A stretch of DNA of 64,000 nucleotides, from positions 2,816,592 through 2,880,591 of the forward strand of contig JAJEKV010000098.1 of NCBI GenBank assembly GCA_021234155.1, in the 5' to 3' direction. This document shows positions 7,359 through 23,123 of the stretch, piece after piece. This DNA is from Isoetes taiwanensis. Lineage: Eukaryota > Streptophyta > Lycopodiopsida > Isoetales > Isoetaceae. The notes beneath the pieces were generated by a model, which saw only the letters and a list, made by a program, of their open reading frames with translations, was not told the DNA's origin and did not search any database. A program made the translations under genes and the position numbers. Numbering within the stretch: the first letter of the stretch is position 1; each line of letters begins with the position of its first letter.

Positions 7359-7938
7359 GACCTTCTAGAAAGAAACCTTCAACTCAAGTACGTCAACATC
7401 ATCATCTAAAGCATTCCAAAACTTTGAACAATACATGAAACAAAAACTCACCTAGTTAGTATTGACGATCCACAAAGCAATAACAGGTCTGGTTGGTTTG
7501 TGGCATGGCAGCTTTGAAGATGGACTCATCATAAGGCCTTGTCCACCTGCAAGAAAGTACAAATTATCCACAATAGCTGTATCCCACTCTCCAGCATCAT
7601 TGTGTAGCAAAGGCCACCACGGGGCTGACTTCCAGTGAAAAATTACCAAGGTACAATCGGCTCGGCAGGCTTTAGAGAAAGAGAAGGCTTTGAAAACCAA
7701 AGCAGGAGGGCAAAAACAATAGCTATTAGTATCATGCCAAGACTGGGCAAAAGGATCAGGTGGACAAGAGTCTCTCGGAATAGGACGCCAACAATTAAAT
7801 TTAGGAAGGAAATGGTTATTCAAATTAGCAAAGTGGTCCCAGTCACGAGGGCCCCAAGCTAGGTCAATGATGCGAAAAACTTTAACTGGCAAACTATAAT
7901 CATCAAAATCAAGCTTAGAAAGGTAATCAGCTCGCTGA

Positions 7939-8322
7939 TTAAGAATACGGGAATCCTTGCAGGTTTGGGAACAAAACTATGACGAAGACAAAAGATGAAA
8001 TTTTGAGGTACAAACAGTGAATAGTCGGGACTTTGGAGCTGCCTTTCGTCAAAATGTAATAAGAATTTAGAGAATACTCATAGGCAAGAAGGCATTTTCC
8101 ACTGAAATCCTCAGCATGGAGTTTAAGACAATGGGCTAAGGCTGATAGTTGACGAATGATAGAAGAAGAAGACTGCTCTAACTCATCAAAAAACCCATTG
8201 AAAGAATTGCACATAGTAGAGTCATGTACCCAAACCTCCCAACCTGAGCCACTAACATCATAAGATAAGGAAACCACCGGGGAGACTGGCTCACAAACGT
8301 AATCTTTCAGCAAATCAAACAA
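7939..8322 (-). pseudogene. DIRS RNase H domain, degenerate
   Basis: An open frame with SYDVSGSGWEVWVHDS (family form DxSGSGWG) keeps the first aspartate. The later REL motif reads RQL, losing the glutamate, and the DN motif before the IL..GS segment reads EY. By family comparison the metal-binding set is therefore incomplete. It lies between the RT end and the connector of the same retroelement. Confidence 0.6.
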
Positions 8323-8730: not shown

Positions 8731-8734
8731 TCAT
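8731..8734. repeat. Target-site duplication, left (TCAT)
   Basis: TCAT immediately precedes the left inverted repeat and recurs at 19,079-19,082 after the right one. Removing the element and one TCAT rejoins the DIRS frame so that it reads Y-A-D-D-F-L-F-A. This independently confirms both the insertion and the 4-bp duplication. Confidence 0.85.
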
Positions 8735-8759
8735 AAGCACGATTTAATTAATTCGAGAA
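8735..8759 (+). repeat. Left terminal inverted repeat of the 10.3-kb element
   Basis: Starts AAGCACGATTTAATTAATTC and matches the reverse complement of 19,054-19,078 at 23 of 25 positions. Confidence 0.85.
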
Positions 8760-9303
8760 TTTCGGAATTCTCGTTTAGCATGAAATAGGTTCTTGGGTGT
8801 CTATAAAACACCGCAAATGGTTGCAGCGGAGTAAAAGTTGACGTTTTTGCCGCTGCTTTTTGGGCACAAACAGCGACGTATCCGATTTGGACATGTATAA
8901 GGCTATCCCAAGCTCCTTCGGGAGCAAGAGCGTCCACGGGGAAAGATTGAAAACACTTTCGGCCGGGATCGCCACGGCGAAGATTTGAAAGCTGCCTAGG
9001 CAAAGATGGATGTAATATTACAATTCCGTTAAGCTCTTCACATGGATAAAAAGAATTGAAAGTGATAATGAGGATCGCGGTGGCTTAACATTGTGAGTTG
9101 TCGCGGTGAAGGAATGTTTAGACAAAATAACTGAAATAGTAAACTCAAAGCATTGTAATTTGTATTCCTCAAACATTTCAATGTACATTTCTTTGCCATG
9201 TGGGCAGAAATTAGTCCATCTGGGTTTCCGATACTGTCTCAGGTACAACACCGAGCTCAGCAGCTATCCTAGCTACATGTTCCTGTCCCCTTTGGAAAAC
9301 ATC
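8760..9303. other. Left subterminal region, no gene recognised
   Basis: Between the left inverted repeat and the first coding region. A minus-strand frame at 8731-9003 resembles no family known to me. A short imperfect palindrome (AGAATTTCGGAATTCTC) lies next to the repeat. Confidence 0.4.
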
Positions 9304-10030
9304 TTACGTGGTCCATCTCGGTAGCTTTGTTTTATCCGGGATTTCTACGGACATGGCTGCGCAAGGAGTTGGACATGTGGATCCGGTCCTTCGATTGTCG
9401 GGCGGTATCCATGGGGTCCCGCCGACATCTGCGCCACTCTGCTCAGCACATGCGATATCGGGTGCATGGAAGAGTTTGGTTTTTTTCATTGCTGGAACCT
9501 GATGCTCTTGTGTGCCTGATGGCTCACCCTCTTGATCCGCAGGGTCCATACCTACGTATTCGAAACTCGACCCGCCTGTCAAGAAAGGCATGTAGGCATC
9601 AAATTTTTCATTTAAAGCCCCCAATTTTTGAAACACGGGCTCTAGCGCAGAAATACCTTTCTCAGTAGCCTCCAGAAGTCTTTTTCGTTTCACTCGCATT
9701 CTTTCCTCGTAGCTTTTCTCATCCATTTGATCCAAGATTGAATCGATGTTAGATATATCCATTTGTTGGGTAATGTTTAAATTGATCGCATTAGGATCAT
9801 TCTCGAGGACTACCTTATCCCGTCATCTGTCTCCCAGTATACATCGACCATTTTTTCGAGCTTATCCGGAAAGCCCTCGAGGCGGCACACTTTACCCTGG
9901 CTTTGAAAGCAATACTCTTCTTTCCTGTGATGGCGACACGAAGCGTGCCTGGCGAGGAAAAATCAGAACACAACCATCCCCGGCCTGAGCTTGTCAAGCG
10001 GTGGTAGGCATATGATGTCCTCAGCGGCAC
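9304..10030 (-). pseudogene. Unrecognised coding region of the 10.3-kb element
   Basis: An open frame (9762-9304, 152 codons) encodes a basic, helical segment (MDEKSYEERMRVKRKRLLEA) followed by an acidic, low-complexity C-terminus. Its frame continues upstream without an ATG through NDPNAINLN, then after a one-base shift near 9822 joins a frame with YCFQSQGKVCRLEGFPDKLE and VDVYWETDDG up to about 10,010, with one stop. The content looks coding (acidic/basic patches, W and Y kept). I do not recognise the family. It may be the C-terminal part of a second protein of the element, transcribed opposite to the DUF7869-like gene. Confidence 0.4.
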
Positions 10031-12800
10031 TTCATCGCGTGGTCACCTTCCATTGGAGCAAACTTACTTTTGGGTTTCCAAGTGAAATATATGCGCCATT
10101 TCTTCTTCATTTCTCATCGATTATCTTCGTCACCAGCGGCGGGCATTGGTGGCAAAGGCGTCTTACGTGGTCGCGGCCTTTTTGTATCCAAGCGAAGCTC
10201 CGACTCGGCATAATGGCGTTCACCACCGGAATTAAACTACACGTTGATGCACATATGGGTGATGTAATCGATATTCCTTCACCCTTTTCTTGTTCATATC
10301 CCTCGTCATATGTACCCTCTGAGAAATATGGGACCGCCTTGAATACTGTTTTTTTTCTTGCAAGCAATGCGCAAGTTCACACCGCATCGTAAGAATCACA
10401 AGGTGATAAATGTTAGCGAGTTGTCATCTTTGGATATTCGTGTGAAGAGTTCCATGTATTTTTGTAACGTCCATAATGTAGACAATCCTCTAATGTCTAT
10501 GAACACCATAGTTGCGTTCTCGATATCGGAGTGGAGGTAGGAATCCCTACCTTTGTTACAAAGATGCACAACATTTTTTCTTCTCCTTGATCTTGATAGC
10601 CTCTTGGGTTTCAAAATCGATCTAATGGGTTCTAGAAATGCAACGCAAATTACCCACAACATGTTCCTTATTGTAATTGGCTTTCCGCGTACTCGTATCC
10701 AATCGGATATATCCGAATCCGTTCGCGGAAAGCGGGAAAGTCAGAAAAGCAACTCCTCCCAAAAGTGTAATCTTTTCCAAGCCGTAAGGAGGCGCGTATG
10801 ACAAAATCTCTTTCAGATGAAGGCGGGGCTTCTAATATCAATGGCGTTACCGGCAATTAAACCCGCCATGATATCCGCTTTGCACCTTAACGTATGTCTT
10901 TCCTTCCAAAATCTCATCGAAAGTAGCCGAGAAACCCTGTGATTAGACATGCCTCGAAGGTATCTTAACCGGGTTTTGTTGAAGAAGTCCGCCGAGGGGC
11001 TTATCGGGGAAAATCTCCATGCTCATCACAAAGCTTCTTGTTGACCCATCATTTGGCCACTTCCATTAACTTTTCGAAAACCCGCTCCTCCATAAAAATA
11101 AATTGCTTCTCGTCCTTTAGCTCCTTCACCTTTAACGTTGTGGTAGCTATCTCGTGGAAGTCCTACAAAACAAATGGTTAGGAAAAATGCCCCGCGATGT
11201 CTTTGAAACAAAGATAATAAAAATACCTTCCATGCCGAGGTGGTGGCGTACCAATGGGACCTTGAGGAGGACAACCATATGCTTTATGTTGATCTCAGTA
11301 GGCTGTTGAAGCTTCTCTAACAATGGTTCTCTGTGTATACGGTGTTAGCGATGACTTCATTAAAATCAATGCTCAACTCAATATATTCTCTATCATTAAA
11401 TTTCCGTTAAGCACTCTTGTTCTTCTCCTCGCAGGGCTTTAGCAAACTCCATCTATTTGTTCCGTTCTCCAACAAGACAAAGATAGCAGTTTTGAGTTTG
11501 CACATATACCGCGGGTTACCGATATTATCCAAAATTTCTTGCCCTTCAAGTCATCCTCCTCACTCCATGTGATCTTTTTCGAAATAATGTGCACTTGTAA
11601 GTTAGGCGACCCACAAACCGGAAATCATGAACAATAACAATCACCGGGTAATGGGGTCGAAGGGGACAACATCGGTGGTGTGAGCACCTCCGTGGGATAC
11701 GTCTTGAAACTCTTCACGAGTGCCCTTGCGTGGTCGTTTGAGCGCATTCGATGCGTGAGGTTAGCTTGAGCCGGGTTCGCGAATCGAATATTGAAACCTT
11801 CATAAACCGGTTCACACCAGCGGGTAGAACCCGTTTGAATTGTTCAAGCTTCATGCGGTTTGTTCTACTTAATTTGCGTTCTTCTTGAGATTGAATTTGA
11901 GGTCCGCTCGCCAGATTCGGAAGCAATAGAAATGCTAGCCTCTTGGACGATGCAAAGCACTCGAGACGGAAGGGGGTGTTGGAAGAAGAAGGTTCTCCGC
12001 TATCGTAAGTATTGAGTTTGCCGAGTTTGATTTTGAACTTTGGGATGGTAGGATCTTTTAGGCACGATGGGGAGCACAAATAGCGGAGGTTGAACGGGAT
12101 CTATTTGAGCAGATGGTTGGGCGGTGGACTTGAGGCTCAACGGAGAGGGCTCTTGGTTCGTGAGGCCTACGCTATAGCTACTGGCTTCACATGTTTTTCT
12201 TCACGAGCCCTTAACCAATTCGTGTCCATTACGAAGGCATCTTCTCATCTCGTTTGGCTTTTTCAATGCAATGCTAGGTGGTTTCTTATCCACCCGCAAA
12301 CCTTTTCGCATGTCGAAGCTGGACAATATATCCCATTGCCCGTTATTCGAGACGAGAGATTCGTGCGGGGGGGCGATACCAGCAGTATCCTTTTCGCCTT
12401 TGGTGAACATTCTTTCCAATGGGTAGGCTTGTTTAATTTGCTAGTCGCCATGAGCGAGGGATCATAGTTTGTCCATTTAAGGACATACTCAATGAGCCTA
12501 CAAATTCGGTAGGTGTCCTCTACGCCGCATATAATAGCGTCCTGGACATTGTTTTTTGTTCCTTCCCCACATAGCGATTGCAATTCCCTATCTGCTTTGT
12601 ATGTCATCGGCTTTCTTGCCAGTCCTGAGGAACAAGCGAGAGGTCTTTCTGGCGGTCGCCTTTCGTCTGTGGAATTGCCTGTGCAATTTCTATACACCAC
12701 TTTCTTTCATTTGAAGGTGTGATGATCTTATTGGGTTCAACGTCTGGGCCGCGATACAAATCGAGCCAAGTAAGAAGTGGAGTCGATATTCCCTAATGCA
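10031..12800 (-). other. Degenerate stretch, possible continuation of the minus-strand gene
   Basis: Minus-strand frames at 10,367-10,107, 10,662-10,396, 12,079-11,714 and 12,700-12,263 are amino-acid-rich but recognised as nothing. CpG is frequent and CAG/CTG almost absent: 2 counted by hand in 10,141-10,740, against 19 in the 600 bases 7441-8040. Frames break often, as expected if many CAG/CTG sites are miscalled or mutated. Confidence 0.35.
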
Positions 12801-12825
12801 CAAGTTCTTCGGTAACATCGTTGAG

Positions 12826-13090
12826 AGTCGCGGTCGCGATCTTCAAAGGGAAAACTTAGGACGATCGCGACCGCGATCCTCATGAGTGATTCGGAAGATC
12901 GCTGATCAGTAGCGGTGGTGGTACATCCAAGAAGATCGCGAGCGATGTTGTTGACCACTCAACTGCGATGTGACGTATTTATACCACCGAAGCAATCAAC
13001 CAGGATCGCGGACTTGATCCGTCCGACCACTGAGCAGGATCGCGACCGCGATCCGTCCATTCCTGAGCAGGATCGCGACCATGATCTGTT
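12826..13090. repeat. Cluster of GGATCGCGACCGCGATCC-type palindromes
   Basis: An 18-bp near-perfect palindrome or its halves occurs at 12,827-12,844, 12,864-12,880, 13,001-13,020, 13,034-13,054 and 13,067-13,086. The last three sit in imperfect repeats of about 32 bp that share GAGCAGGATCGCG. It could be a protein-binding array or a structured region. Open frames crossing it (Ser/Arg-rich on the minus strand) are by-products of the repeat. Confidence 0.55.
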
Positions 13091-15200
13091 GAAGTCGAAC
13101 CTAATGACTACATTACGAAAGGTAAAAGAGTCTAATTGAACATGCACTATCCAGAAAGAAATCGCTTGCATGATCTTCTTGGTGAGGTTGGAACTAACCT
13201 TCTGCGGGTTGGCTTTGGTGCCATGGATCGCCCGGCCTTGAGGAAAGCTTTCGAAAAGCGGGTTGATTCGGACCGTGGTGAAAGGCGCTTCGGAGGAGGG
13301 CGAGGAATCCGCGAATCATGTCCGAAATCATTGGCGGAATGAAAGTCCAAGGGATCGCGAGGTAAATATCTTGGGCGGGGAAGCCGGATTATTTTATCCA
13401 AACGACGTGCTTGGATCCGACACGCCATAAATTGCAGCCGTATCACGGCCCGGCATTCATAAATACCCACCATTAATCAACCAGGATTAATGGACACACA
13501 AATTCAAATTTGAAAAGTGTGCGTAATAAAGTGCACCTCAAATTCAAAAAGTAATGCGTGTAGTAAAGGCCCTCTGGAACCATAATTAAAGGCGTCTCCG
13601 GGCGGCTTGGTTGAAAGGCCCGAAGAGACAACCGATTTCAAATTTTAAACCCTGAATTTCGCTCCCGATGAAGAGGCGGGATTTCGATTTATGTCGGCGG
13701 TGTTAGAAAAGTTCTTCGTTCTTCTTGTGCTCGTTGGATTTTTGGAGGCTCGATCTGCTCATCGAGGGGGCTATAGTGCTCGGCTTGAAGCGCTCGCCTA
13801 ATCTAAGCTCTGAGGGTACAAAATCCTAATGCCTTACCGCTTCTATCCGGCTAGAAGTTGTCGAATTCGGGAGAGATTTTCGATTTGTTGTTTATGTATA
13901 GGTTATAATAGTGCCCTCACAACCATAACAACATATGCACCATCTCTTTCTTGGTATATCTTTGTTCGGGGATCGTATAATCCGATTAGCGAGGCCCAGT
14001 TGAATTGTTTATTTTCGGACTAATTGATAGTGAGGGAATATCACGGTAACATAATGGTTACGCTAATGGTAGTGCTAATGGTTTTGCTCCCATTTGTTCA
14101 ATTCAGCGTGATCTCCATTCGGGATTAGCCCGGCCGAGGGCAATTTTTCGATTTGTGGAAATAACGGTACCGCAATTAATATTCACATAGACATTTGATT
14201 TGCGAGACTTATTCAAGCATCTATTTTTGCTTTCGATTCGACTCGATGGGATGTGCGCATGAAAGAATCGCGACTGCGTTCATCAGGAACGCCATAGCGA
14301 GTTACATAGCGCCTTACGAGATTACTTCGAATTAATCGCGATTCGCGATCTTTTCGAGGTAAGTCTAGTGGATAGGTGGTTTTAAATGGTTAGTTAGATT
14401 AGACAAAGTTTCTAGGTAGATTTGAAGGATTGAAGGTCCACCATAGAGGTCAGGATGGATCGCATGGCCGCGATCTCCCTTCTGTTGTTGTCTTGTTCTT
14501 ACGTCTTTTTTTACCCATGTGTTCAAGGGAATCGACTTGATCTTCCCGAGGTATTATGTCGTCCCTTTGGGTCTTTGAGAGTACTGTGCATTTTTTCTTC
14601 TAATGAGGGTCGGCGCGCCATCGCCATCGCGATGTTGGACGATGTTGACTTTATTCGGGATGGAAGCTCATGGTCTTTCTACAATTGGGGAAGAAGGTGG
14701 TGAGGGCGAGTGCATAACTTCAAAAATCACCACAACGTCCCGTGCCGTGCGGTAATTGATAGTAGTTTCTCTAGTCGTTGTCTTTGATGGGCGGATACCG
14801 CCGCTTGGTTTAAGCGGAATTGAACCACCTAGATGAGGCTGTTGGTAGCTTCATTCTTTGGTCCAAAAGCGGCGTTCATGATGAAATCACTCCGTTAACC
14901 CGATGTTAGCACACCACGGTCGGGATCAAACGGATAAATTGGCAAGTTCCAAGTAAACTCCGTGAAGGAAACAATGAACCAATTGAATGCGAGGGGGATT
15001 TTGCGAGGGATAAACTAGTGGAAAAGACATGTGAGTTCTTGCCACGAGTCTGCCGCAAACCGCTTATGCTACAGGGTGTCATCGTTTTGGGCAGATCCAA
15101 ACGATGCCGTATCGACATGAAGTTGGGTGAAGCATGGATAGGGGTTTACATTATGAATTTGTTGCCAATGCGGAGAAGATTTCTATGCTCTGTCGGGCTT
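13091..15200. other. No gene recognised
   Basis: Short open frames only. CpG is frequent and CAG/CTG is low. A further GCGATTCGCGATC palindrome lies near 14,340. Probably an intron, untranslated region or unreadable coding sequence of the 10.3-kb element. Confidence 0.35.
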
Positions 15201-15439
15201 GTGAAATGCCACGGATGCATGACTTGGTGAGATGGCCAATAGCATTGGTTCTCGTTGATGATATTCGGTTTTCTAGCCTAATTTACGGTAGTGAAGGAGC
15301 CCGAGGTTGAGAAGGAAGCTTCGCCATCAGGTAGGAGGCTGGAGTAACAAAAAAGACAAGTACCACATGGTGAGCGGGAAGGCGAGAGGGCTTCGACCCC
15401 AAAAAAAGGTGATAGGAAAACCACACGAAGCTATCTTGC

Positions 15440-17745
15440 GATTCGGGTCCTCGATGTCTTTGCTTTAAGAGATGTTGTGCTAATTTCACGATTAAGGAGG
15501 TATCCGCCATGAGGACCTTTCTTGGAACATGAAAAGCTCGAACGCACGACTTTTGCGTACAACATGCTAGATCTTTGTTCGGAGAATGGATGTGTGAAAA
15601 GCTAATCTTTGAACAACGGGGAAGTGCGTGAAGGCATGGCATAGTGCATACGGTATCCCATTTCTACATTTTACAAATGGAGGAAGCTTTTATGGAAGGG
15701 CACAGGATTGCGGAGCATGGAAACTCCGGGTCCATGAAGCCAAGGTCTCATACACTTGGCCGGGGTGTCTTTGTGCTATCTATGTACATAGATGAAAATG
15801 CTGAAACTATGCCACACAGCTCAAAGGTTACGAATGGGGAACTAGAGAAAATGTGAAGAGATTACCTTCCATCTTGACTAAAAAGGACATACATCAAGAG
15901 GTAGATATAACCGGTCCACTAGATGATTAGGAAAACATGTTTCTCAATCGTCCTTCTTGTCAACATGGAAGGAGAACCACTGTAGGTAGCAATCGCTAAA
16001 AGGATAGCATTTTCTAAGTGTAATAATGTATTGTGATAAAGGAGAAACTTGCCAAGACTAGGGATCAGAGAAAGAAGAGAGCTTCGTAGTGGAAAGGAAA
16101 TCTCACATGGCGATTTCAACTTTCTGCAGGAGTCTCTCTTTGGGTCGAGGAGAGCTTTGTCTCATCGATCTCTGAAAATGCCTTAACCATTATACATGAT
16201 AAGATGGATCGAGAATAAGGCGATGGTTCCTCGATGTCCGGAGAAGCTAGCAAAAATCGTATGGAGGGGTGAGCGGTTGAAGGTGAGTCTTCTTGGTGCT
16301 CTCATGCATGGGCATGGTGTAGGTGCTTTGGGCCACTTCTCATTTGGACCTCGGCACGATGATTGAATTTTCATGTGGGATCTTTAAATCATACCACGAA
16401 AACACTAGAGAATCAATCGAGGGACAACTGGGGTCATTTGAGAAATACTGAGATCATCGAGGAAGATCTTTGAGGGGTGGAGCAATTTTGAACACGGAAG
16501 CCCTTAGGACAAAAATGGTGAATGGCACTAGAAATGATTTTATGCCTCCTATCAAGGGCCCTCGATCACAGAAGAAGTTGCCTAGGAGGCTTTACTTGCA
16601 GCTAGACAATTGCTCGGGACAAAACAAGAACAGGTATCTTTTCTCTTACTTGTCATACTTGGTGCGGTTAGGTGTCTTCGATCGGTGCAACCGGGATTCA
16701 TGATGGTTGGACACACCCACGATGACATAGATGCCCTCTTTGGAAACTACTCTACTCTATTGAGAAGATCGGATGCCTTGACTATCCGGGAGCTTATGCA
16801 ACTCTTAAAGTGTAGTTCAAAGTCTCCTACGCCCTACCTTGTCCGAGGTTCCCAAGCTGAAAGAATTCGTGAAAGGTTTTATCCACGATAAGAAGGACCG
16901 TTTATGTGGTCATTTGGAACCTCTACTCTTCAAGTTCTCGCGATGAATGATGGATGGCCACTAATGTTCTACAAGATGAGGCCGGGGCATAGGGAGTGGC
17001 TACCTAAAAGGGAATTAAAATGTGGAAGGAGGATGCCCAAGGCTTACCTATGATTCCTAGAGGGTCACCTAAGGTAATGCAGCCATATCGAGCTTGACGG
17101 ATATAGGTGCCTTGAGAGCTTCAATTGCTAAGTACATGATGCACTGGGCAGCTATTTCTAGAGCGGCGATAACTCATGGTCTAACACATATATGAATGAA
17201 GTTATTGACTCTTGGTCCACCTTGTTGCGAGTGCTTGGGGGCGTTCAGCCCGAGAACCGTCATTCGGATTTCGCCCAAGACGAGACAAACCGCATTAGAA
17301 GAACCCGACAACTTATTGGTGGATGAACACATTGGTGCATCTCATTATGTCGGGCCTTTCTCGGGTAGACCCAAGAACCCATTTGAAATATTAGGCCCCT
17401 ACCAAGATGTGAAGAAAGGAATGCTCTTATTTGATCAGACCACATGATAAGCGCCTCGGCGTGGATGGCCTTTGCGGAAGAGGACCCGATAGAGAGGACC
17501 CTAATCTCCCTCACTATGAAGAGGTGTTTGTTTCTTGGTTTGAGCCTGTTGCCAGAAAGGGTACCTCATATGCAATGCAGTATAGGGATTGCTGGAGCAA
17601 GAATTGGAGACCGAATCCTAATGACCCGCCACGCTACCAACATTTGAAAACGATAGACTATGGTTGGGCCGTAGAGACCAGGCCATTGTCAGTGGTGATC
17701 CCCGATGAGTGTGGGGGCTCAGTTGCAAGAATTAGTGGCTAAAGA
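15440..17745 (+). pseudogene. DUF7869-like protein gene, frameshifted (candidate transposase)
   Basis: Plus-strand fragments in several frames line up in the family order: GKCVKAWHSAYGIPF (about 15,620) after a conserved CCANFT-type stretch; a segment with HRIAEHGNSGS (15,690-15,745); LYLQLDNCSGQNKNR (about 16,590-16,635); after a one-base shift VGHTHDDIDALFGN (about 16,706); and a C-terminal stretch with FVSWFEPVARKG and DYGWAVETRP (17,431-17,742). The LDNC and GHTHDDID blocks are the hallmark of DUF7869 proteins, which have an RNase H-like look with acidic residues spaced as in a DDE nuclease; a transposase role is inference. At least three frameshifts or stops are visible, several in a CAG/CTG-poor stretch. 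A working parent copy probably exists elsewhere. Confidence 0.65.
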
Positions 17746-17911
17746 AGCTAAGGACGATGATGAGAACTCTTGAGGTATGCAATGCTCTTTTACATAATTA
17801 CTATATCATTCATAACATGCAAGTTACAATAGACTAGTTATTATTCATTACGCTCTGCGTTTTTCATCTCAACACTAGAGCACTTACACTATACAATGCT
17901 AAACAGGTGAT

Positions 17912-18154
17912 TCATTCACCTTCAGGATCTGTCGTAGTGATCCCTGATATCTCATAGCTCATTCGCTCAGGAAGCCAAATCAGATGGATCATTACACGAA
18001 TTGACGCAGGGCAACGAATCTCAGCGCCCAAAGCTTTTCTTCGCAGGTAAGGATCAAGAAGAAGATGCCTGTCTAGGCAACCAACAAGATCAGAGTGGCT
18101 CATTGAGCACTTGATCGCCTCGATGTGGTGAATTGATGAAGGCAAAAAATCCAT
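17912..18154 (-). CDS. 80-residue protein A, paralogue of the gene at 18,559
   Basis: Start MDFLPSSIHHIE at 18,154; stop at 17,912-17,914. An in-frame ATG further upstream would make 126 residues, but the 80-residue start is preferred because it gives a gapless alignment with the neighbour: 29 of 80 identities, including C16, C26, LDP at 33-35, C48, H57, WLP at 60-62 and YE at 67-68. Three conserved cysteines and a histidine suggest a structural or metal-binding role, unproven. The family is not recognised. A TATA-like block lies 37 bp before the start. It is intact while the neighbouring DUF7869-like gene is broken. Confidence 0.6.
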   Translation of the reverse strand: MDFLPSSIHHIEAIKCSMSHSDLVGCLDRHLLLDPYLRRKALGAEIRCPASIRVMIHLIWLPERMSYEISGITTTDPEGE

Positions 18155-18184
18155 GGGAGAAGAATGGATTTTAGCCCCGAAGTG

Positions 18185-18235
18185 AGAAGCTTTTATAGTG
18201 AAGTAGAATGATTGAGGTGAATTATTGGGGTAGCC
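18185..18235 (-). promoter_or_regulatory. Conserved core promoter of 80-residue gene A
   Basis: Minus strand CACTATAAAA (18,191-18,200) sits 37 bp before the ATG, preceded by an AATTCACCTCAATCATTCTA block. The same block occurs at the same distance from the second gene. Its conservation outside the coding region argues for a shared promoter. Confidence 0.55.
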
Positions 18236-18319
18236 TTCGGCGCCATTATTGCTCGTGTATAAGACCGTTGTATAAATACAAGTATAATACATCTTTCGTA
18301 TAGATATATGTATGCTTTT

Positions 18320-18395
18320 AAAACGTGTGCTTGAGTAATTCAGGTGTGGTTGAAATTAGGAACTGTGCTTTAGTAATTCAAGTGTGATTGAAAAG
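18320..18395 (+). repeat. Two subterminal repeats related to the element end
   Basis: GTGCTTGAGTAATTCAGGTG (near 18,324) and GTGCTTTAGTAATTCAAGTG (near 18,367) recur about 43 bp apart. They resemble the terminal repeat (GTGCTT...ATTAATT). They could be transposase-binding repeats. Confidence 0.45.
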
Positions 18396-18558
18396 CTTGC
18401 AGATGTAGTGGAAGTCGAAGAGCACAACCCTACACTACACTCAGGTATGATACATCAAACAATATTCATTGTGCTATTACATCCTTACATAGTTTATAGG
18501 TGCTCACACCATTATTATATCATAAACAGATACAATAGTCATCACTGATAACATTGAT

Positions 18559-18801
18559 TCACTCATCATCAACATCAAAGCTCGTGATGCTATTCAGCTC
18601 ATAGATCTCCTGATCAGGAAGCCAGTAAATGTGGACTTTAACACGAGTGAGCTTCTTGCAAGCACTAGCAGGTCCATCAGCTTTAGATAAGAGCCATGGA
18701 TCAAGCTTAACGCTATTTCTAGCGCATTCGCCCAGATCGTTGTAGCTCAAGTAACACTTGAAAGAGCGGATGTGCTCTGGACGAGGCATTGAGGAAGCCA
18801 T
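18559..18801 (-). CDS. 80-residue protein B, paralogue of the gene at 17,912
   Basis: MASSMPRPEHIRSFKCYLSY at the start, stop at 18,559-18,561, 80 residues. It aligns without gaps to protein A at 36% identity while keeping the cysteines, LDP, HxxW and WLP positions. That pattern suggests an old tandem duplication held under selection for protein sequence. It lies last before the right end of the 10.3-kb element. Family not recognised; by position it could be an accessory protein of the element. Confidence 0.6.
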   Translation of the reverse strand: MASSMPRPEHIRSFKCYLSYNDLGECARNSVKLDPWLLSKADGPASACKKLTRVKVHIYWLPDQEIYELNSITSFDVDDE

Positions 18802-18831
18802 AGAAGATGAATGGCCTCTACCCCCTCGTCA

Positions 18832-18880
18832 AGCCGTTTTTATAGTGAAGTAAAATTATTGATGTGAATTATTGGTGTAC
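18832..18880 (-). promoter_or_regulatory. Conserved core promoter of 80-residue gene B
   Basis: CACTATAAAA on the minus strand at 18,837-18,846, 36 bp before the ATG, with the same upstream block as gene A. Confidence 0.55.
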
Positions 18881-18902
18881 AATGTAGGGCCATTATTGAG
18901 CT

Positions 18903-18962
18903 TCTACGAGTATATGTGTATGTGTATGTATATGTGTATTTGTATGTATATGTGTATGTTAA
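18903..18962. repeat. (GTATGT)n-like microsatellite
   Basis: About 60 bp of imperfect GTATAT/GTGTAT repeats between gene B and the right end of the element. Confidence 0.8.
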
Positions 18963-19053
18963 TTACCTCATGTTTCTTGTGCTCGAGAAGTAGGTGAAAG
19001 TATTCGTGCTAGAGCAAATTAGGTGTGCTTAAAATTCTCAAAATGGGCTTATT

Positions 19054-19078
19054 TTCTCCAATTAATGAAATCGTGCTT
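19054..19078 (-). repeat. Right terminal inverted repeat of the 10.3-kb element
   Basis: The reverse complement starts AAGCACGATTTCATTAATTG and matches the left end at 23 of 25 positions. TCAT follows at 19,079-19,082. Another AAGCACACC copy sits just inside, near 19,022. Confidence 0.85.
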
Positions 19079-19749
19079 TCATCTGCATAAGAGATGCATC
19101 GAACAGATTTTGCTCTAAAATGCTTGACAATCTGGCGGATCAATTTAGTAAAAACATAACATGCAGTGGAAAGGCCAAAAGGTAGAACTGTGGAAAGGCC
19201 AGGCTGAAGGATGCATAGCAACATGGTGATAACCAGAATGAAGATCAAGGGTAACCAAGACATCGTCCCTCCTCACTACTGAAGACAACTCATTGATGGC
19301 CTCATACTTAAAAGGTCTCTGCTCCAAAAACTGGTTGACAAACCGAAGGTCTAATATCAAATGGAGTTTTTGGAACCACTCTGGAGCAAATGAAAGGAAT
19401 GACAGATTTCTTAGTAGCAGCACCGGCTAATCAAATCTTGGATGGAAGAATGCACAAAAGCAGAATGCTGGTCCTCAAGCTTGTGATTTGGTCTAGACCA
19501 AGGTCGTGCAGGCGGGGCACCTAACCAGGGAAGCTTGTAACCATAGTAGATCCAATCCAATACCATGGCACTATTGCAAAAAGTTTGCCAGAAAGAGAAA
19601 TGCAATTTCAAACAGCTACTAAGGGAATGGGTAGGGGTAGTAGACATAAGATTTTCATTTGAAGAACAACAGCACCAAATTAAAACATGTTAGAACCCGA
19701 GTAATATAGGCCACCACAAGAAGCAAAAAATACACCTTGAACAAACAAA

Positions 19750-20614: not shown

Positions 20615-23123
20615 CTACTTATTTAGTTGTGCATCACAAACAAGCAACATTTCTGTGAGGAAATTTTCTAGCTTCCATAATGGCAACTGAAAAAAAGTAT
20701 AAATATTCACACAATCTATTTTCTGGATCTTGTGTCGCTCTCTTACAGATGTATAAGCTGCACAACTAAGCAAAATGTGATGCTCATCCTCCACTTCCCC
20801 TATTTGACATATCTGACATATGCGACTGGACCTTGGTAATTTATGCCACCTTCCACACTCGACTTGTAGGTGATGGGAGCTAACCCTCATCCGACAAATC
20901 TGGTGTTTAGATGACATAGGCAGATGGTCTATCAAGTACTGTTGTGTTGTGTACATAACCATGGGATTTATTTCACGCCTGTAAAAGTCCATCTTGCCTT
21001 GTGGGTTGGCCTATAATCTCTCGATCACTTTGGTCCGGACAAGGTCCCGAATAGCTTCTTCCTGTGATGGCATATCGTTCATGCTGATGTTCCATCTTTG
21101 CAGCCATAATTCTCCATCTGCATACCAGCCATTTTCCTTGCTTTGTTCCATTGCCTTATATGGTAGCCTTTCATGTGGTAAGGCTTTAACTTTGGTTATA
21201 TAAACAAGGTATTGATAGATTGCCTCTACCTCCAATGGCAATATACCAACTTCAACAAGCATCATGGCATATGGTGTTTGGAGTTTACCTCCTAGCTCAT
21301 CCATTAGATAGCGCTTTTGGACTGCTTCTATATCTTTCCATTTTTTCCTTGCTAAACCTGGTCCCCATATCTGGCATCCATACAATGTAACAGGCATAAC
21401 TAAAGCTCAATATAAATGAAGCCGCATGGACCAGTCCCATAGCTGAATTGTTCTACATTTAGCTTGTGTTGCATATAAAGATTTCTTTCCACCAACAATT
21501 CTCTTATCTACGGCTGTATTCCATCTGTAATTTTCTGTTATCTCAATTCCCAAATATTTATAGTTATGAACATGTTCAATGGGCTTACCTTTTATCTGAA
21601 AAACATGTTTTTTCCTCGTGCCAAACATCATAATTTTTGTCTTGTCGAGATTGACCGCCATTCCTGCTTGATCGCAAAAGGATGATAGCACCTCTATATG
21701 TTGTTGCAAGCCTTCCGTTGTTCGTGCAAGAAGCACTATGTCATCTGCATATAGAAGGAGCATATCCTGGGAGCACTACTCCGTCATAACAACTTCTGTT
21801 AAGCCACCCTTCTACTTCATCAATATAGATGCCAAATAAAGTTGGAGATGTAAGGCAACCCTGTTTAACACCAAGATTACTGATTATTTGCTTATCACAC
21901 ATTTCTTATTCAATGGAGTGCTCAATTCAGCCAGCACTTGCTCATATAACCTTGCTACAGCAAGTTGCAGTCCCTTAGGAACATTAATAGCATCTAATCT
22001 ATCCATAAGTTGTTTTCTTGCTACAGTATGAAATGCCCTTTTCAAGTCTACAAAACATGCATACATTTCCCTATTTATTCCCTTAGACTTCTCAATGGCT
22101 ACTCTTATTGTTGCTAGATGGTCTGTAGTGGAGTAATCTATATGAAAGCCGGCTTGCCCAATAGCTCTGATATCTTGCTTTTCAGCCCATCTTAAATAAC
22201 TTATGTTCCACTGCTGTCCCAAAAAGCTTTGCCATAAGACTGCTTATCATGATTGTGCGAACAACTCGTAATCTCATTCACTACTGCGTTTGCTGCCCAT
22301 TTTATCATCTCCGCTCTAAGCCCAGTTGTATCTGCAGCCTTACCATTTGCAAGCTTTCTGATGGCTTCTCCTATATCCTCTGATGTAAATATGGGCTCCA
22401 ATGTCATATCTCCTATATCTATAGGTGGCTCATCTGCTTTATATAACAGCTCGTGTGCATAGTTATATAAGTCAAAGGCATCTACATCATTTTTGCTGTA
22501 TATGACGTATTCAACTATTTCCAGAAGTCCTTTGGGCAATGTAAGAGCTTATTGTAAAGCTCAATTTGCCGTTTTTTCAGAAATATAGTCTTCTTCCTCT
22601 TAAGTAACTTGCGGTATTCTTTTAGGTGCTCTTTCTTTTGCAGCCCCCATAATATCTTAAATTTCCCTCTCGTTATCTGACATTCTTCATCAAACCAAAG
22701 TTTATCTCTTCTTTTCTTTTCCTTTTGTATAGAGAAAATATCTCTTGCAGTATCTAGTATTATATTTTGCAGATTCCAACAGCGAAGATGCACATCACCA
22801 GGTGGATTCCAAGTTTTAAGAGCTTCTGTCATAGCTTGCGCATATATGTCACGCTTAGCATAGTCTAACATATTCAATTTGTTGTTTGAGTGGCGTTTCT
22901 GTTTCTGTTTCTCTCTATGAAAATATTGCCTTCCTATTTTCAGCTTAAATAGCAATGCACATTGCTCTGATTCTGGGCATTCTTCCACCATAAAATCATT
23001 TATCAGCCTCGTTGTTGTGTGTACATCTGTCACTACATAGTCTACAATACTGTTTCCATTTGCCATCTTATTTGTAAAAGTATGTGATAGCGGGTATCTC
23101 ATGCATCCATTTAACAGTAGCAA
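20615..23123 (-). pseudogene. LINE 1 ORF2: endonuclease end, reverse transcriptase, Cys/His C-terminus
   Basis: Successive frames: 23,123-22,515 holds NGNSIVDYVVTDV, the end of the APE-type endonuclease, followed by a linker; 22,539-21,884 holds ANGKAADTTGLRAEMIKW, then GFHIDYSTTDHL and ACFVDLKRAFHTV of the RT fingers and palm; 21,763-21,407 holds LLYADDIVLLA and NYKYLGIEIT; 21,397-21,011 holds MPVTLYGCQIWG; and 20,992-20,615 holds a CQICQIGEVEDEHHILLSC finger-like motif. The catalytic YADD is intact. At least four frameshifts make it non-functional as read. Confidence 0.8.

Follow-up and report, generated by a model that had tools for sequence, protein, structure and literature searches.

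Large DUF7869 transposons of a quillwort carry family-specific palindrome arrays and a putative ParB-like methyltransferase gene

In a 64,000-nucleotide stretch of Isoetes taiwanensis DNA (GenBank assembly GCA_021234155.1, contig JAJEKV010000098.1, positions 2,816,592 to 2,880,591 of the forward strand; hereafter the window), a reverse transcriptase reading frame is interrupted by DNA that bears a DUF7869 gene, which raises the question of what this DNA is and what its other genes and repeats might do. The interrupting DNA is one decayed representative of a large DNA transposon that is present in many copies in a quillwort-like plant. For the whole set of observations we favour, with moderate confidence, a cut-and-paste DUF7869 transposon, probably of Sola1 type, in which a further gene (gene A) would recognise the DNA of its own family through palindromes.

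Ends, target sites and copies of the element

The window element, a decayed copy of what we term family I, occupies positions 8735-19078 (10,344 bp) between two target-site duplications (TSDs) of sequence TCAT (8731-8734 and 19079-19082). Its left terminal inverted repeat (TIR), AAGCACGATTT... (8735-8759, + strand), pairs with the right one (19054-19078, - strand) at 23 of 25 bases (21/23 and 18/19 over shorter lengths), and all 25-base inverted-repeat pairs of the window that span 10,300-10,399 bp with at least 19 matches are registers of this one pair of ends. When the flanks are rejoined with one TCAT, a single frame containing ...RCISYADDFLFA... is open through ...CISYADDFLFA..., and its peptide matches RVT_1 across the junction (E 9e-9, residues 13-95), compared to E 0.19 for the fragment 19145-19426 alone. 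Taken together, the TIR, the TCAT duplication and the restored reverse transcriptase frame confirm both ends and the site of insertion. The sequence-only reading had placed both ends to the base and had proposed that excision restores the YADD frame, and both proposals hold.

The other copies were sought in 1,658,258,908 bases on 1110 contigs, and the candidate counts from these searches are rough. The terminus AAGCACGATTT was counted 1019 times and its reversed control 552 times, and the left 566 bp of the element gave 630 candidates, the best 40 of which were scored and showed 90-100% identity. Among the 17 family I copies with both ends located, the boundaries are the same as in the window, and 13 have a perfect 4-bp duplication (TCAT, ATAT, AGCT, TTAT, GATT, TGAA, ATTT, TACA, AATT, TACA, ATTT, CCTA and TTCA) that follows no fixed motif. 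The remaining four comprise one copy with a 5-bp duplication (TATGT) and three without any, namely C31, C907b (ATAA/AGAA) and C1028. It should be added that 7 of the 17 were chosen for an exact AAGCACGATTT at both ends at a fitting distance, so that decayed copies are under-represented, and that in two further copies, C919 and C668, only one end is delimited. C31 (G000:C31:159201) and C103 (G000:C103:147925) have a common left flank, AAAAACCCAGCT, so that a single insertion, present twice on duplicated or haplotype contigs, may account for both. Copy C908 (L007/L008), with both ends present, measures 12,018 bp and exceeds the window copy by 1.7 kb, possibly owing to a nested insertion.

The candidate transposase and its sister families

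Gene B, the DUF7869 gene, extends in several frames over approximately 14910-17742 (+ strand). The domain profile (PF25273) matches two pieces of it, with E values of 9e-13 and 2.9e-15, and the matched stretch (16566-16831, + strand, in two frames) contains the motifs LQLDN and GHTHDDID. In the genome, the best 150 of 9908 DUF7869 candidates were scored and all 150 exceed the cut-off. The association of a DUF7869 protein with a mobile element having inverted repeats and a 4-bp duplication, which had been proposed from the window alone, is confirmed in many copies.

The sampled DUF7869 domains fall into clusters; those of family I are 30-39% identical to the others where aligned, and among families II to V the identity is 58-79% (88% between V and Vb). 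The termini are delimited for families I, II and III, and are not fully delimited for IV, V, C1018, C1041 and C1093. Family III has the termini AACAACGT, with the duplications GTAG and AACT in both of its copies, and family II has AACAAGRTTGC, with AATT in C1081 and AATG in C1034b. In the case of C1081, the repeat search alone ran at least 2 bases beyond the final ends and gave no duplication, and it was the AACAAG boundary set by comparison of copies that revealed AATT. The 4-bp duplication is thus present in all four delimited copies of families II (two) and III (two), whose termini differ from those of family I, and the trait extends beyond family I. DUF7869 copies outside AAGCACGATTT repeats, which the sequence-only reading had regarded as evidence against its claim, do occur; however, the four delimited ones lie inside repeats of their own with 4-bp duplications, so that the claim is widened rather than refuted. 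One copy, C1034t, was at one point assigned to family II, but it is without the family II palindrome (see below) and was placed in family III by its transposase and termini.

Three aspartates of gene B are candidates for catalysis, in the motifs (H/I/V)D.MDQ (D1), LQLDN (D2; IQLDN in V) and GHTHD.ID (D3). D2 and D3 are found in 11 of 11 open frames from outside the window, which represent families I to V, and D1 in 10 of 11; in the eleventh (C1030, family IV), the D1 region lies in another frame. The two window pieces of gene B are partial in this comparison. Because fold prediction gave no usable result, the transposase reading depends on the linkage to TIRs and TSDs and on these conserved residues, from which DUF7869 is likely the DDD transposase of the elements; an RNase H fold is a possible but unproved feature of it.

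Relatives of gene B also appear in bacterial genome bins. An intact 915-residue protein (E 1.5e-51) is encoded by contig L159, which was assigned to a Trichormus bin; the fern Azolla is the plant host of such a cyanobacterium, and the contig is probably Azolla DNA. Two further DUF7869 proteins, on the short contigs L160 and L161, were binned as a cyanobacterium and an actinobacterium and probably reflect eukaryotic contamination of the bins; by its motifs, L160 resembles the type of the window family. No relative of DUF7869 was found in viral contigs.

Gene A and the palindrome arrays

Gene A lies to the left of gene B on the opposite strand. In the window it is broken into pieces over approximately 9304-12706 (- strand): the piece 9304-9822 matches other copies, and visual comparison relates the pieces 10396-10740, 11714-12100 and 12263-12706 to frames in other copies, three of which have open frames of 622-657 residues. 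Between the best 150 DUF7869 and the best 150 methylase matches in the genome there are at least 17 pairs within 9 kb, all 17 divergent and 4.9-6.2 kb apart, compared to 4, 2, 0 and 0 pairs when the methylase list is shifted both ways by 20, 50, 100 and 200 kb. A second listing gave at least 18 pairs, 16 of them divergent, against 2, 2, 0 and 0 in the shifted controls. These counts are lower bounds, since each list holds the best 150 matches.

In families II and III, gene A keeps what by sequence are motifs I and IV of a beta-class N6-adenine/N4-cytosine methylase. Motif IV (ADLPYGFK or ADIPYGFK) is present in 6 of 6 rows, from families II and III and one row of Vb, and motif I (VLDAFSGSGTT) in 4 of 4 rows from families II and III. 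The proteins match N6_N4_Mtase (PF01555) with E 2.9e-17 (II) and 5.4e-15 (III), a gene A profile matches the solved structures of MboIIA (2.2e-10), RsrI (4.2e-8) and CcrM (4.6e-7), and in the genome the best 150 of 1444 methylase candidates were scored, all 150 above the Pfam cut-off. Taken by itself, the motif IV exon matches no family significantly.

Upstream of this exon lies a region (GGNHSFKAR...LTDEEAK....N.DNEY; FWIISGNHSIFAAQVLLSM...LTDKEY in the family I copy C1007) that is probably ParB-like, though this is marginal and not proved. In family II it matches TIGR03764 with E 8.4e-4 and 0.029, far below the curated cut-off, and also DUF6551 (E 0.0068) and phrog_1033 (E 0.031). Families II and III thus appear to have a ParB-like gene with an N6/N4 methylase part opposite the transposase, the ParB part being the marginal one. 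By tblastn the ParB-like part has no match in phage records, and a pattern search gave 208 matches in viral contigs and 115 in prokaryote genomes, with no relative in either. The methylase exon, on the other hand, matches 953 phage records; the two that were examined are plain methylases without a ParB match, and so provide no ParB comparison.

In family I the corresponding protein would be a degenerate methylase. In hhalign comparisons, VLDFFSAGTAS aligns with motif I (E 9e-4, probability 22.8%) and ENATMVFID-IRGFSALW... aligns with the motif IV exon (E 0.0083, probability 4.8%) except at LPYGFKLKD, where 9 residues are gapped; Pfam alone gives 0.038. Despite the low probabilities, the assignment is adopted because the order of the motifs is collinear. 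The window family appears to have lost the catalytic loop, as motifs I and IV are not preserved; the window piece 10396-10740 (- strand) includes the degenerate region of motif IV (ENATMVFIDIRG), which was recognised in other copies of family I. Even so, family I gene A looks constrained, with dN/dS values of 0.29, 0.36 and 0.40 between close copies that support purifying selection; in five other within-family pairs, dS is saturated and dN is 0.27-0.45. In C1007 (L037/L038), gene C1, a small gene described below, is 96% identical to that of the window and gene A only 55% identical to that of C908, which suggests a mosaic formed by exchange between subfamilies.

GC-rich palindromes were first noticed in the window element, in the DNA that separates genes A and B, where five 16-bp palindromes of the type GATCGCGNNCGCGATC start at 12826, 12863, 13004, 13038 and 13071 (array 12826-13086), each with at most 2 mismatches and two within 1. 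At this threshold there are 3-11 sites per copy in 12 of 12 family I copies and none in 53.6 kb of window flank; with 1 mismatch, sites are found in 11 of 12 copies, C668 being without. In 11 copies, 71 of 84 sites lie at 4.05-6.55 kb of the element, and the commonest step between sites is 34 bp (14 times). Family II has a palindrome of its own, TGTATTCNNGAATACA, in 5 of 5 copies, with recurring steps of 41-43 bp (once only in C1018), in arrays between the genes and in apparent gene A introns, which are deduced from gaps between reading frames. Similarly, GTATGAATTCATAC is found in both copies of family III, and CTATGCGCGCATAG in both V and Vb. A cross-table of families against palindromes at 1 mismatch is diagonal with two exceptions: family III and the related IV have similar sites (GTATGAATTCATAC and GTATAAATTTATAC), and C1030 also has 21 sites of type VI.

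Dinucleotide shuffles, which took in 10 of the 12 family I copies, gave means of 0.00-0.03 and a maximum of 1, against 5-19 sites observed. Counted genome-wide, and not restricted to element interiors, exact GATCGCGNNCGCGATC occurs 838 times (1 for the reversed pattern), exact family II sites 3392 times (0 reversed), and family V sites 437 and 466 times on the two strands (0 reversed). Upstream of its intact DUF7869 gene, the putative fern contig L159 also has three 29-bp palindromes spaced 51 bp apart. Every family examined thus has a palindrome proper to it, arrayed for the most part in intergenic DNA or in what appear to be introns.

The second exception above concerns a rejected assignment. 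C1030 could be regarded as one element with a tandem gene A and a 13-site palindrome, but the gene A type of this extra part, VI, occurs at 82 places, and only that in C1030 is within 15 kb of any of the 150 listed DUF7869 places, so that VI is taken as a separate element beside or inside the family IV copy. This further gene A type, a degenerate methylase located at L069:3023-5483 (+ strand), has roughly 4170 candidates in the genome and its own palindrome, ATGGCGCNNNNGCGCCAT, with sites at L069:1514-2016.

Interpretation, known systems and neighbouring features

The ends and duplications, the arrangement of the genes, the methylase motifs and the family-specific palindrome arrays are seen directly in the sequences. 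The transposase activity, the binding of palindromes, the methylation and the anti-silencing effect, all of which we infer from sequence, could be combined as follows. Gene B would encode a DDD transposase, which would cut the element at its TIRs and leave 4-bp duplications. Gene A, on the opposite strand, would encode a ParB-like DNA-binding protein fused to a methyltransferase fold of the beta class, and its ParB-like part would bind the family's own palindromes between the divergent genes and in the inferred introns. In families II and III it might then methylate the element's own DNA, possibly as the signal; in the window family, where the catalytic loop appears to be gone, binding alone would have to suffice. 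The likely effect would be that the promoters of the element are kept or reset unsilenced, only on copies of its own family. Each transposon family would, on this view, recognise its own DNA and either mark it or free it from silencing, and such self-recognition may counter silencing, in convergence with VANC of the Arabidopsis VANDAL elements. A broader and more tentative proposal, which we hold somewhat doubtful, is that land-plant transposons run a parS-like code, with a ParB-like reader and palindromes proper to each family, in which active methylases write N6-methyladenine (6mA) or N4-methylcytosine (4mC) and the clade without catalysis binds only; by the palindromes of the putative Azolla contig, the same code may exist in a fern.

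Several results weigh against the self-recognition proposal. The window copy itself is dead. The AlphaFold model of the L159 core with L160 reached a pLDDT of only 33.6 and was not used for a fold search, and DUF7869 has no match among solved structures. With regard to gene A, the top row of the phrog search of the ParB-like region is an unnamed family (0.007), ParB family profiles match neither the family III protein nor the family I exon, and the solved-structure search returned no ParB structure. The profile link of family I gene A to methylases is weak (E 9e-4, 23%; E 0.008, 5%), and the dN/dS of 0.09 in two gene A pairs comes with a near-saturated dS (about 3). Finally, it could be the transposase or a host factor that uses the palindromes.

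The last point leads to the other explanations of the arrays. The En/Spm element has subterminal TnpA sites, and the palindromes may likewise be sites of the transposase, gene A being an unrelated passenger or a helper of transposition. Transposase sites are family specific, as these arrays are, and some sites do lie nearer the ends, at element positions 230-380 in 7 of 11 family I copies (336 in C908); however, the great majority of family I sites are located mid-element beside the gene starts, and the family II arrays are situated between genes and in apparent introns. We regard this explanation as unlikely. Somewhat less probable still is that the methylase itself recognises the palindromes, which would form a switch of replication or transposition, as with Dam and Tn10, and have no anti-silencing role. 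Beta-class methylases are sequence specific, and the family I site includes GATC, but family I retains its arrays despite the loss of motif IV, and the sites measure 14-24 bp, longer than the usual methylase sites.

That the repeats are functionless slippage products or hairpin-prone tandem repeats appears very improbable. The steps of 34 bp and 41-43 bp do resemble tandem duplication, and the sites were picked by their core, so that conservation of the core is no independent evidence against slippage; on the other hand, the unit differs each time and is always a palindrome in I, II, III, V and the putative fern contig, and separate clusters within one element are more than 1 kb apart.

The self-recognition proposal can be compared with known systems. 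The Sola superfamily is defined by a 4-bp TSD and a DDD transposase. The former is found in 13 of 17 family I copies, 2 of 2 family III copies and C1081 and C1034b of family II, and for the latter there are the three conserved aspartates, with no PDB match and a pLDDT of 33.6 as regards the fold; the label "Sola-like" may apply. Bacterial ParB-parS systems have clustered palindromic sites of about 16 bp. The present elements resemble them in a ParB-like domain and clustered palindromes of about that size, and differ in the weak sequence match, in showing no recognised helix-turn-helix part and in having no known partition role.

The closest counterpart is Sola1-1_Ec32 of Ectocarpus, a large DNA transposon with a gene for a ParB-like and N4C/N6A methyltransferase protein opposite the transposase; judged by its description in the accessible text, its gene plan matches that of the window-type elements, and its authors already propose binding and modification of its own sequence (PMC12477816). 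Gene A and the gene plan are therefore of a known kind. Unlike the Isoetes families, Sola1-1_Ec32 is a single 21.5-kb family of a brown alga, and in the portion of the report that could be searched, the word "palindromic" is absent and no methylase-dead variant is described (PMC12477816). The short motif bound by VANC21 is densely repeated in introns and upstream regions of its own family, the targets of VANC lose DNA methylation over their whole length, and the targets differ between related VANDAL elements, according to the available text (PMC5735166). The Isoetes elements share with this system a second transposon-encoded protein and family-specific motif arrays in noncoding parts. VANDALs differ in that they are MuDR elements, VANC is not described there as a ParB or methylase protein, its motif YAGTATTAY is not a palindrome, and hypomethylation is experimental for VANC and inferred for the Isoetes elements (PMC5735166). 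The TET/JBP DNA transposons of fungi likewise carry a DNA-modification enzyme, but they rely on 5mC oxidation and belong to other lineages, and neither Sola nor ParB is mentioned in the text obtained (PMC12730594).

The literature searches brought up neither family-specific cognate palindromes nor a clade with a dead methylase, nor such elements or their expansion in a land plant, with the reservation that the algal references cited by the partly accessible PMC12477816 may hold prior art; in the literature searched, DUF7869 is mentioned neither as a transposase nor by name. What is new here is the presence of family-specific palindrome arrays. DUF7869 gains a likely function as a transposase, most of the extra genes of the element are explained, and candidate binding sites are supplied for the ParB-methylase proteins of algal transposons. 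Moreover, two questions become testable, namely family self-recognition and enzyme-written 6mA/4mC in land plants, for which the methylase-dead clade, seemingly under selection, may serve as a natural separation of binding from methylation. If the proposal is true, the elements would have evolved a means against silencing independently of VANC, the second such system, and would provide a land plant with 6mA/4mC.

Two small genes near the right end complete the element: C1 (17915-18154, - strand) and its paralogue C2 (18562-18801, - strand; 39% identity, E 3e-19). All 12 family I copies have them, in some cases broken, whereas the 10 sequences from other families do not. The sequence-only reading had remarked on extra genes not familiar from such elements; gene A can now be accounted for as ParB-like and methyltransferase-like, while C1 and C2 stand as paralogues without an assigned function.

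As for the host element, which had been named a DIRS retroelement, its reverse transcriptase is confirmed and the label otherwise derives mainly from that naming. Of the parts of a DIRS element, which are a reverse transcriptase, an RNase H, a methylase and a tyrosine recombinase, the profile search of the host element returned the reverse transcriptase and a weak Dam-type match (E 0.47, 7452-7976), with no recombinase or RNase H match, and a DIRS identity is plausible, not proved. Adjoining it, a second retroelement is marked by an RVT_1 fragment at 21407-21775 (- strand; E 3.8e-12).

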